A stretch of DNA of 64,000 bases from Thermococcus stetteri (GTDB lineage Archaea > Methanobacteriota_B > Thermococci > Thermococcales > Thermococcaceae). The stretch lies in the NCBI RefSeq assembly GCF_017873335.1, contig NZ_JAGGKB010000001.1, positions 62,001 to 126,000 on the forward strand, in the 5' to 3' direction. Made by a program: the position numbers and the translations under genes. Below, piece after piece: positions 38,791 to 43,637 of the stretch; positions within the stretch are counted from its first letter, which is position 1; each line of letters opens with the position of its first letter. A model generated the notes under the pieces. That model was not told the origin of the DNA and searched no databases. It saw only the letters and a list, made by a program, of their open reading frames with translations.

Positions 38791-39210
38791 ATGAAGGTGA
38801 GAGTCAAGGCAAAGACCTACCCAGATCTGCTCCGAAAGCTGGAGGAGGCCCTCGACGAGGAGGTTACGGAGGTCTACGTCAACCTGAGACCGACCAAAGA
38901 GGTAGTCGTTAAAATCCTAGAGCACTCACCAAACGTCAGGAAGATCACATGCCCTCCCAGCCTTTACCCAAAGGTGTCCCAAAAAGTCATCATGGCCCTG
39001 AACCAGCTTGGGGTGGAGCTTTTACCCGAAAGCTACCCGAGGGGCAGGCCAAAGAAGTACGACGAGAAGACGGTAAAGCAGGTCGTTGAGATGGCCCGAA
39101 AGGGTATGCCAATGAAAGAGATCAGCAGAAAGCTTGGCATACCACTCAGAACCGTGTATTACCTTGCAAATCTATACTCTTCGTCCCACACTTCTTTTCG
39201 AGGGGAGTGA
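38791..39210 (+). CDS. DUF1699-like protein with C-terminal helix-turn-helix
   Basis: A 139-residue protein. The first ~80 residues match my memory of DUF1699; residues ~85-130 hold R-G-R-P-K-K-Y followed by a resolvase-like helix-turn-helix (M-K-E-I-S-R-K-L-G-I-P-L-R-T-V-Y-Y). The R-G-R-P piece is an AT-hook-like DNA contact. It lies 4 bases after DUF530 and overlaps mcrB by 4 bases, so it might regulate the McrBC genes. Confidence 0.65.
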   Translation: MKVRVKAKTYPDLLRKLEEALDEEVTEVYVNLRPTKEVVVKILEHSPNVRKITCPPSLYPKVSQKVIMALNQLGVELLPESYPRGRPKKYDEKTVKQVVEMARKGMPMKEISRKLGIPLRTVYYLANLYSSSHTSFRGE

Positions 39211-41369
39211 GTTTCTACACCATAAAATTATATAGGGGTTATCCCATAATATCCCGGTGGTTTCCTGTGGGCAGATTTGAGATTTCCAAAAATGCTCTGG
39301 AAAAAATAGCTGAGAGCCTCAGGGAGGAATACGAGGGAAGCAACGTCGATTACGTTATCGAGGACATGAAAATTTCGGAAAACGGTGAATACCTCTCGGT
39401 ACTGATAAGGGACGACTACGACTCCCGGTTTCTCCACATCTTTGACACGAAGGGAAATCCACTCCCGGGATGGAAGAGCGGAGTTGGGATTCCCTGCCAG
39501 GAAGATGTTGTTATTTTTCCCAGCGTTGAAAACGTGGCAGTCTTTATGAAGTGCGGAACCGGGGAAATAACACTCTACCCATTTCAGAACGAAAGTCCAA
39601 AGGAGAACGCCCTTAGAATAACTTTCTCAAGGCTCCCAATATACGTGAGTCTGACCAACACGGAGAGGGTAGTAATTTTCGGGGACATGAGGCTGGACTT
39701 CAACGCCCCAGCTGACCTGGAGGCCCTCTTCATACCGCGCCTTCAAGGAGGTTACGTGTTTTTCCATGCCATTTACGACACGGAAGGGGACGTGTATTTC
39801 CTCCATACCTTTAAGGAACCTGGAAAGAAGAACCCCGTGCTGAGGGTGGGGAGGATAAACTACCCACCTCACCCCTATTACTCCCCCCTTGAATTTTGGG
39901 ACGGAGTGGAGACGATCTCAGCTTATTCCCCAGCGCCACCAACAAAGGGGGCAATAGGCGACATTGTATTGAGGGATCAAGAACCAATCGGCGTTCTTGG
40001 GACGAAGCTTGGGAAGGAGCTGTACGTCCTCACCCCAAAGAAAGCCCGGATAATCCCGCTTCCAGGTGAGCTCGTGTTTACGAAATTCACCGAGAAGGGC
40101 CTCTTCCTGCTCATCGGCCAGTTCAGGGGCTATCTTTATGGGGGTTTCGTCACCTACGAAGACCTCCTCGAGAAGAACTCACTCAAGCTGGAAGACATTG
40201 AGGACAGAACGGTCTTCGGCAGGTACAATCCGGAAGCCGTTGATCCAAAGTTCTCTGGAATCTCAAGGGACGGGAACGTCCTCGTCCTAGGTAAATCATC
40301 GGGTAAACTAAGCGCCAGCGGCAGGTTCTACTACTACGTTCGCCCTGATTCAAACTATCTATACTCCTACGTGTCCACGGAGACTATCCCGGGGGAAGAG
40401 GAGGTTACCTACGATCAGTACACCCAGCTCGAAGAAGTGCTCAAAAGGTTTGGAGGGGTCATCCTTTACGGCCCGCCTGGAACCGGAAAGACAAAACTAG
40501 CCCTGGACCTCTCAAAGGGTGCCGACAGGGTTGAGGTCGTCACTTTCCATCAGTCATACAGTTATGAAGACTTCGTTGAGGGCTTCAGACCTGTCGAAAA
40601 GGACGGCAAGCTCCTCTACGTCGTTGAAGATGGAATACTGAAGAGGCTTGCAGTTGAGGCGATTTTCCACGGCCTCCATCCTAATTCTGGAGAAACTGAC
40701 TACGGGAAGAAAAAAGAGATCGTCCTCAACTACCTCCAAACTGGGAACGGAGCATTTAAACCGCGTGGGAAGTTCTACCTCATCATAGACGAGATAAACA
40801 GGGGGAACATATCTCGGATCCTTGGAGAAGTCATAACCCTCCTCGATCCGGATAAAAGGCTTGGGGCGGAGTACGAGACTAGGATAACCCTCCCATATTC
40901 AAGGGAGCCGTTCGCACTGCCGCCCAACCTCTATATAATCGGAACCATGAACTCAACTGACAGGAGCATTGCCTTCCTAGACATGGCCCTCAGGAGGCGC
41001 TTTGCGTTCCTTGAAATACTGCCCCGCCCAGAGGAGCTCGGTGATATCGAAGTCGGTGGTGTAAACCTCCAGCACCTCCTCTCAACTCTAAACAGGGTGA
41101 TCGAAGAGGAGCGCGGGAAGGACTACACGATAGGTCACGGCTACTTCAGGGAGGTCATAAAGGCGAAGCCGGAGGAGAGAGCAAAGGCCCTAAAGGACGT
41201 CTTCTACTACAAGATACTCCCACTGCTCCAGGAGTACTTCTACGGAAACTGGGAAACGATACGTCGCTCCCTGCCTGGATTCGGGTTCATAGATGAGAAG
41301 GGCAGAATAATCGAAATGGACGACGATGAGTTCATTGAAGCCCTGCGCAAGCTGGTGACCGAGAAATGA
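39207..41369 (+). CDS. mcrB: McrB-type AAA+ motor with unusual N-terminal domain
   Basis: A 720-residue protein. Residues ~415-690 are the McrB AAA+ domain: Walker A G-P-P-G-T-G-K-T near 422, Walker B D-E-I-N-R-G-N near 528, and the McrB signature G-T-M-N-S-T-D-R-S with A-L-R-R-R-F. McrB hydrolyses nucleotide to drive DNA translocation for the McrC nuclease. Residues 1-~400 show no known methyl-base-reading domain; they look all-beta with repeated turns (I-S-E-N-G-E-Y-L, I-S-R-D-G-N-V-L), as in a beta-propeller. The start is GTG 39207, overlapping DUF1699; AGGGG lies only 2 bases before it, so translation is probably coupled. mcrC overlaps by 4 bases. Confidence 0.9.
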   Translation: MSFYTIKLYRGYPIISRWFPVGRFEISKNALEKIAESLREEYEGSNVDYVIEDMKISENGEYLSVLIRDDYDSRFLHIFDTKGNPLPGWKSGVGIPCQEDVVIFPSVENVAVFMKCGTGEITLYPFQNESPKENALRITFSRLPIYVSLTNTERVVIFGDMRLDFNAPADLEALFIPRLQGGYVFFHAIYDTEGDVYFLHTFKEPGKKNPVLRVGRINYPPHPYYSPLEFWDGVETISAYSPAPPTKGAIGDIVLRDQEPIGVLGTKLGKELYVLTPKKARIIPLPGELVFTKFTEKGLFLLIGQFRGYLYGGFVTYEDLLEKNSLKLEDIEDRTVFGRYNPEAVDPKFSGISRDGNVLVLGKSSGKLSASGRFYYYVRPDSNYLYSYVSTETIPGEEEVTYDQYTQLEEVLKRFGGVILYGPPGTGKTKLALDLSKGADRVEVVTFHQSYSYEDFVEGFRPVEKDGKLLYVVEDGILKRLAVEAIFHGLHPNSGETDYGKKKEIVLNYLQTGNGAFKPRGKFYLIIDEINRGNISRILGEVITLLDPDKRLGAEYETRITLPYSREPFALPPNLYIIGTMNSTDRSIAFLDMALRRRFAFLEILPRPEELGDIEVGGVNLQHLLSTLNRVIEEERGKDYTIGHGYFREVIKAKPEERAKALKDVFYYKILPLLQEYFYGNWETIRRSLPGFGFIDEKGRIIEMDDDEFIEALRKLVTEK

Positions 41370-42799
41370 GGGACTTCAGGGTCGTGACCCTCTACGAGTT
41401 CGAGAACAGGCCCCTTTCCGAGTTGAAAGGCCTAGGGCTTCAAGCGACCGAGCGGGAGCTTATGAGGTTTACAGAAGCGGTGAACGCCCTCTACGGCGGC
41501 GACAGTCCCGTCTTTACCATCACCTATGACCCGAGGAGGGACGAGTACCACCTGAAGACCCATGGAAGCGTTGGGTTCGCCTACTACTTAAGCGGCGATG
41601 GGGTTGTGCTCGTGCAGGTACTTCCAAAACCCTTCAGGTACGACCGGGAAGACGGCCGCTCCCTACTCTTCTTTCTTCAGCTATTCAATATGTACTACCA
41701 AATGGGTCTCGAACCTAGCGAGATAAGGGAAATAGTGTCTGAATACGGCAGACAGAAGGCACTGGACGAAATTTTCAGGTACCTCTACGTCCTTATGCTA
41801 TCGCGAGCACTGTCCCGGGGGCTTTATTACGAATACGGGGATCTCGAAGAGAGCTCCCAGACGATTCGGGGCAAGATCCTAGTAAACGAACTCGCCCGGC
41901 GACCACCCTGGAAGGCAGATCTGCCGGTAAGGTACTCCCTTCTTCTCGAGGACAACCCTCTCAACAGGATTCTGAAGGGGGCCCTTGAAGTTGTCGTGAA
42001 GTCCGCCCGCCTCAGCGAGACGAGGAAAATTGGTGGGATTCTCCTCGACCTCTTTAGGGATGTTGATGATCCAAAACCCGGGGACTTTGAAAAGGTGTCC
42101 TTCAACCACCTGAACGAGAGGTTCAGAACTGTCTTCAGGCTGGCAAGGGTGATGTACTCCGGACTAGCCGCTGGAGGTTCGAGGAGGTTTCTCCCAGGGG
42201 TATTCATTAGGATGGACGAGCTTTTTGAGACGCTCGTTTACAGAACGCTGAGAACAGCCCTAGGGCCTGATGCGGAGGTCAGGTTCCAGGTGCAACTCCC
42301 CCACGTTATAAAGAACGCAAGTGAAATTGAGGCGAGGTTTGGGGCGCTCTTCATGATGGGCAACCCGCTCCCGGATATAGTCGTGAGCACCACTGAGGGA
42401 ACCTGCGTCGTTGAAGTTAAGTACAGAAACCTCTACGTGTATCACAGGGGTGAAAACAGAGCACATAGAAAACTCGTGAGAAAGAGTGACGAACTCTACC
42501 AAGCCTACACCTACTCCCGGCTAGTCAGCGAGTACTGGAGAGCCAGGAAGGTCCCTGTTCTCCTCGTGTACCCGAGGCTTGAAGGCACTTACAACCATTG
42601 GATACCAAACCTCTTCAGCGCGCGCATTGAGGACACCTTTGAGTTCTTTGACGGAACGAGGGTGGGAGTCTTTGGGTACGAGCTCTCGATGATAGGAAGC
42701 GAAATCCTGCTCAGGAGAAACTCCGTGGCAATCGATGAAGACACCGCCGAGAACCTAAGGTCATTCATCCTTGGACTCTGCTCATCGGGAGAGGTTTAA
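41366..42799 (+). CDS. mcrC: McrC-type nuclease subunit
   Basis: A 477-residue McrC. The N-terminal part is the McrB-binding region typical of the family; the C-terminal part is a PD-(D/E)XK nuclease with Asp337 in P-D-I-V-V and Glu350-x-Lys352 in V-E-V-K-Y-R. Catalytic residues are intact, so it should cut DNA when driven by McrB. Its ATG overlaps the mcrB stop by 4 bases. No methyltransferase gene accompanies the pair, as expected for a modification-dependent system. Confidence 0.9.
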
Positions 42800-42833: not shown

Positions 42834-43637
42834 ATGTTCGTCGAGACACAGGAAGAAGTTCCCGAAATCAGAGAGCCGCTCCGGAGAGTCGGCATAACCA
42901 ACCTCAGAACAGTCGCCAAGATAAACTGGAAAGGGAGGGAGTACACCTTCCTTCCTCTTATAGAGGTAACCATCGATGTTCCACCGGAGAAGAAGGGCAT
43001 ACACATGAGCAGGCTCGTCGAGAGCATAACGGAAGCGATGAGCGAAGCGGTTGAAGAGGAAGTGGCAAAAGTCCACAGCTCCCTTGAGGAGCTTGGAAAG
43101 AGCGTCATAGAGAGGCTCGAAGGGAAGCACCCGCACAAGATGGCGGAGGTCTGGATCAAGACCCACCTCATCATCCCGAGGACAACTCCGGCCAGCAAGA
43201 AGACCAGCTACGAGCCCTACGACGTCGAGGTCGGCGTCATAAAAAACGAGGACGGCTCATTCGAGAAGGTTCTCAGAGTGAGGGTGATAGGGAACACGGC
43301 CTGTCCTCATGCCATGGCAAACAACAACGGCAAGACACACATCCAGAGGGCCATTGGCGAGCTAGAGATAAGGGCGCCCTTTGAGGAGGAAATCCCGCTC
43401 GAGGATATGATAAACGTCGTCGAAAGCTCCTTCAGCCACCCGACCTACACGCTCCTGAAGACGGTGGACGAGAACGCCGTAGTTCAGGGAATGTACAGAA
43501 ACCCGAAGTTCGTCGAGGACGTTGCCAGGGAAATATTCGCAAAGGCGAAGGAGAAATTCAAAGGCAGAATCCACGTGAGGGTCATCAGCAACGAGAGCAT
43601 CCACAAGCACGACGTCATAGCGGAGACGTGGAGCTGA
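42834..43637 (+). CDS. mptA: GTP cyclohydrolase MptA
   Basis: A 267-residue GTP cyclohydrolase of the FolE2/MptA family, first step of the archaeal pterin (methanopterin-like/tetrahydropterin) route. The metal site block [13 protein letters not shown] is clear. Start ATG 42834 after GGTGAGAGA; a TATA-like TTTAAAAA at ~42798 lies in the short gap, so it may have its own promoter although it follows mcrC by 34 bases. Confidence 0.9.

Follow-up and report, generated by a model that had tools for sequence, protein, structure and literature searches.

The window, a stretch of 64,000 nucleotides from Thermococcus stetteri, contains a complete McrBC pair at 39267-42799, in which McrB is the AAA+ motor and McrC the nuclease. 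The features of the window described here are all on the plus strand. The McrB-type GTPase gene (39267..41369) encodes 700 amino acids from a GTG start. Its open frame extends upstream to another GTG at 39207, where the preliminary description had placed the start. GTG 39267 is the most likely start because conservation across the orthologues begins there in their alignment, GGTGG is located upstream of it, and the mass of the T. kodakarensis KOD1 orthologue from the equivalent codon, 79.68 kDa, agrees with the 79.7 kDa listed for TK0795 (PMC7325993). GGTGG (39256-39260) resembles a ribosome-binding site, and TTATATA (39228-39234) resembles a promoter; these elements of the 39228..39260 region were found by reading the sequence, as consensus matches alone.

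The AAA+ GTPase core of McrB (40470..41009) was delineated by alignment with the T. gammatolerans McrB (6ut3, E 2.5e-70). Walker A (GPPGTGKT, 40470-40493), DEINR (40788-40802), the MNSTDR signature (40947-40964) and the sensor II/arginine finger RRRFAF (40992-41009) all align between the two proteins, and the carriers conserve the motor motifs. The McrC gene (41366..42799) encodes 477 amino acids and matches PF10117 (E=2.4e-71) and the T. gammatolerans McrC (6ut5_G, E=1.2e-27). Its PD-(D/E)xK nuclease motif is intact, with PD at 42371-42376 and EVK at 42413-42421. PD...ExK is present in all 20 orthologous McrC sequences that cover the region; the 21st sequence is truncated where its contig stops. 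Walker A/B and MNxxDR in the AAA+ domain, next to an McrC with PF10117 and PD-(D/E)xK, argue for membership of the McrBC family, and the earlier reading that both proteins are intact by motif holds. The two were also described as fused. However, they are separate genes, with a four-base overlap between the start of McrC and the stop of McrB.

Three segments precede the motor. The first is an N-terminal helix (residues 8-22, 39288..39332) in the AlphaFold2 (AF2) model. It is followed by a predicted β-propeller domain of about seven four-stranded blades (residues ~24-370, 39336..40376; AF2 models and Foldseek). The linker between propeller and motor (40377..40451) is modeled with low confidence (pLDDT < 50 at residues 373-390), is variable in the alignment and is probably flexible.

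The genes on both sides are outside the system. On the left is a core gene with a helix-turn-helix (HTH) motif and a sub-cutoff DUF1699 match (38791..39210). It is located downstream of the topoisomerase VI genes where examined. We considered it as a third component of the system and rejected this, since it is found in 90 of the 94 Thermococcaceae genomes. On the right is a gene (42834..43637, start by inspection) that we read as MptA-like, which is also the right neighbor in the carriers and, where visible, in most of the non-carriers examined. Where contigs reach, the pair occupies the slot between these two core genes; in some non-carriers they are only about 50 bases apart. The slot in several genomes also holds an apparently membrane-anchored protein of ~260-300 residues with a conserved GYPY..SWTHWEHE motif, with or without McrBC (loci L071, L072, L088, L085, L035, L044, L036 and L042).

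The propeller domain was found in 21 of the 94 Thermococcaceae genomes, all Thermococcus, as 21 open copies that are each located ahead of this McrB motor. Close relatives of carriers are without the pair. On a tree of the two neighboring genes, presence changes at least 9 times, and 7 of the changes are forced by well-supported branches. The copy in genome G042 belongs to the clade of the window copy while its neighboring genes group elsewhere (p-AU 5e-5). These phylogenies clearly point to horizontal transfer of the pair, including into G042. The trees of the N-domain, motor and McrC broadly agree, indicating that the three travel together. The patchy presence and the transfer into G042 make the pair resemble a mobile accessory defense cassette that is kept in one slot. 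A scan of 85,000 species, which missed most of the known carriers, gave no match with a single-sequence query. With an alignment query it gave four loci, all Thermococcus, again missing most known carriers, and the scan is insensitive beyond the phylum. Relatives of the N-domain were found neither in the viral contig scan nor in the phage and plasmid searches. L027 (G042:C3), a long G042 protein whose repeats resemble PEGA and WD40, matches the N-domain at chance level (E 0.5).

Whole-domain searches of the ~370 residues ahead of the motor gave no match to a family in Pfam, NCBIfam, PADLOC or PHROGs. Across the 21 members there was no convincing Pfam match, and the DUF3578, YTH/EVE, SRA and PUA readers were not found. 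Sequence comparison with the PDB gave nothing convincing either; the weak profile matches were antibody chains, which we regard as chance. The structural models are more informative. The AF2 model from the window protein and four homologues is all-β (pLDDT 88, pTM 0.86), and in it four-strand units repeat after the N-terminal helix. The strand count gives about seven such units, which suggests a seven-bladed propeller. When the PDB was searched with Foldseek, 116 matches had E ≤ 0.001 (best E 5.6e-7, probability near 1), and the best 50 of the 116 are propeller proteins, including WD40 proteins, prolyl oligopeptidase, the clathrin terminal domain and Cdc20. A second model, from a homologue that is 41% identical, is also all-β and matches propellers again, with the last blade less certain. 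The prediction that the N-domain folds into a β-propeller, a circle of four-stranded blades, is therefore supported by two models and the fold searches. The preliminary description had read this region as propeller-like and unlike the known modified-base readers; the models bear out the former, and the family searches together with the predicted fold bear out the latter.

Another all-β fold would be the alternative to this assignment. The first alignment was shallow (5 sequences), its five models range from pLDDT 65 to 88, and TM-scores to solved propellers are no higher than about 0.5. However, the two runs with different query proteins concur, the matches listed by both fold searches are propeller proteins at probability near 1, and the four-strand pattern repeats. 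A wrong assignment is thus highly improbable, and the low TM-scores indicate that the N-domain is no close relative of any known propeller.

The charge and loop conservation of the predicted propeller bear on its ligand. The N-domain is acidic, with pI < 7 in 20 of the 21 members. The loops of the predicted top face are somewhat more conserved than those of the bottom face (permutation p 0.009, with residues taken as independent and the faces assigned from secondary structure only). Together these weak arguments hint at a local ligand site and not at a broad DNA-binding surface. A different reading is that the propeller itself recognizes DNA, through a modified base, damage or DNA structure, in which case the pair would be an McrBC of the usual kind, dependent on modification or structure, that has a reader of new fold. 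DNA-binding propellers exist, DDB2 being an example. Six Lys/Arg residues of the N-domain are invariant (K95, K247, K328, R48, R54 and R319), and the characterized McrB N-domains bind nucleic acid (PMC7680126). The acidity and the lack of matches to known reader families argue against it.

The motor also differs from its relatives at the position following Walker A (40494-40496). In the T. gammatolerans McrB a Trp at this position stacks on the guanine (PMC7680126), and Trp is found in most other McrB proteins of the family. The window McrB has Lys, and its propeller-bearing orthologues vary among Lys, Gln, Met, Tyr and His. The GTP preference of the propeller McrBs may therefore be different from that of the Trp-bearing proteins.

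One of the carriers (G024) is almost certainly T. kodakarensis KOD1, and its pair TK0795-TK0794 (McrBC1). This match rests on locus order, gene sizes and protein mass: the G024 copy adjoins topoisomerase VI, which is TK0798/TK0799 (PMC6401487), and the pair measures ~3.53 kb, compared to a published deletion of about 3.5 kb (PMC13385129). McrBC1 is located at the same locus as the window pair and is about 90% identical to it. Deletion of TK0794-TK0795 raised transformation by replicating plasmids, including those from dam-/dcm- E. coli, and integrative plasmids gained hardly anything (PMC13385129). TS902, which is without the pair in a background without the two Type II systems, was the best transformer; given unmodified pTS543, about one in 1000 of its cells was transformed (PMC13385129).

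These experiments also bear on whether the propeller reads modified DNA. Unmodified plasmid transformed better, as expected for such a reader. However, the gain was ~100-fold in all strains, including the strain without both McrBCs, and the authors infer another modification-dependent nuclease (PMC13385129). Part of the modification effect thus lies outside McrBC, and the plasmid result alone does not define McrBC specificity. In addition, strain trends were alike for the dam+/dcm+ and dam-/dcm- plasmids, so the deletion had a similar effect on both, and no m5C was detected in the host (PMC13385129). The transformation results with dam-/dcm- plasmid tend to argue against a strict requirement for modified DNA, and the KOD1 knockout is compatible with a trigger that is not a modified base. 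Overall, a propeller that reads DNA itself is possible but rather unlikely.

The deletion of TK0794-TK0795 lowered growth as well (PMC13385129), so a role other than defense is possible. The propeller might be a docking or localization module for the chromosome, topoisomerase or replisome, in a complex that mainly maintains DNA and restricts plasmids secondarily. The constant location near the topoisomerase VI genes fits such a module, as does the detection of TK0795, together with Top6B, in isolated chromosomes (PMC7325993). However, co-sedimentation of this kind is only weakly informative, and the same list contains ribosomal and membrane proteins (PMC7325993). The horizontal transfer of the pair and its restriction to 21 of 94 genomes, with close relatives lacking it, are also unlike a maintenance gene. 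We consider a maintenance role improbable.

KOD1 has another McrBC. Locus L105:1756-5674 in the same genome and L104:1795-5701 in G014 encode an McrBC with a different N-domain of ~390 residues, similar in length to that of the window pair and with a blade-like sequence. The position of L105 and the size of the published deletion fit TK1009-TK1010 (McrBC2), which likewise limits transformation (PMC13385129). The N-domain of this type is propeller-like by sequence alone, and the profiles of the two types are only marginally alignable (hhalign E 0.014, score 26.2, compared to at most 21.8 for 40 column shuffles and 15.4 for the reversed profile). A tree of the motors alone unites the two types to the exclusion of 12 other McrBs of the family (support 99). 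Both have MNSxDR, whereas the other McrBs scanned have MNTxDR. The tree and the common signature suggest that propeller McrBs may form one clade, and T. kodakarensis may possess a propeller McrBC of each type. Other Thermococcaceae McrBs (L102, L103, L096 and L099-L101) are very long, with extensive N-regions and open frames of up to 1121 codons. L103 matches EVE (E 3e-5) at residues 468-582, beyond its Walker A (~428) and hence inside the motor domain.

Among solved structures, T. gammatolerans McrBC (6ut3-6ut8) is the closest to the window pair in both motor (E about 1e-70) and McrC (E about 1e-27), and it shares motifs and genus. It reads 6mA through a small YTH domain (PMC7680126), whereas the window McrB has the ~370-residue predicted propeller. 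The E. coli K-12 McrBC is the same motor-nuclease pair, which informs the mechanism by homology, but reads methylcytosine with DUF3578. A known modified-base reader ahead of the motor, by which type IV systems are recognized, was not found in the 21 members by Pfam, and this position is occupied by the predicted propeller. Three further systems also have similarities (PMC12707154, PMC11090510, PMC7159879). LlaJI has an McrB-like AAA+ protein with a B3 N-domain that recognizes an unmodified site. CoCoNuTs combine an McrB-like AAA+ protein with coiled coils and an NxD signature; we rejected this class for the window pair, as its signature is MNSTDR (MNxxDR) and its N-domain is all-β without a coiled coil. 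MoxR-vWA-propeller ternary systems have a propeller near an AAA+ protein, borne by the vWA protein. This class was rejected too, since the window pair has housekeeping flanks and no vWA protein, and its propeller is on the motor protein.

We found no description of a propeller McrB in the open-access literature. The main text of an McrBC census (PMC11090510) mentions neither WD40, propeller nor Thermococcus. The study of the T. kodakarensis deletions treats both McrBCs as 5mC/5hmC readers; it does not discuss the N-domain or mention a propeller (PMC13385129). The observation made in the preliminary description is confirmed, and its interpretation as an undescribed defense system is partly supported: plasmid restriction by the pair was already known in T. 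kodakarensis, and the propeller is undescribed in the papers searched.

The data are best explained by a DNA-restricting McrBC with a specificity module of about seven propeller blades, probably recruited through a protein or protein-DNA ligand, and we consider this reading reasonably likely. By homology, the McrB subunits would form a GTP-driven ring through their AAA+ domains. The propellers would project from the ring, tethered by flexible linkers, and bind some feature of the invader's DNA. This feature would most likely be a protein or protein-DNA complex and not a flipped-out modified base. Such a ligand is favored by the acidity of the domain, the top-loop conservation, the roles that propellers usually play and the restriction of dam-/dcm- replicating plasmid. 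The ring would then engage McrC, whose PD-(D/E)xK domain would cut the DNA, as in homologous systems. The pair would be a barrier to plasmids and probably to viruses. More tentatively, the propeller in this archaeal McrBC clade could read a protein or protein-DNA mark, such as a plasmid replication protein or a viral protein, so that the nuclease is triggered without a modification or sequence site.

If the propeller is the reader, the recent work in T. kodakarensis, which assumed 5-methylcytosine reading and in which deletion of the orthologue gave the best-transforming strain, would be read differently. The strains, plasmids and genetic system are already in hand, so the question is directly testable. 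The McrB readers characterized so far are small nucleic-acid-binding domains, and a propeller reader, if true, would broaden the range of signals open to restriction nucleases.
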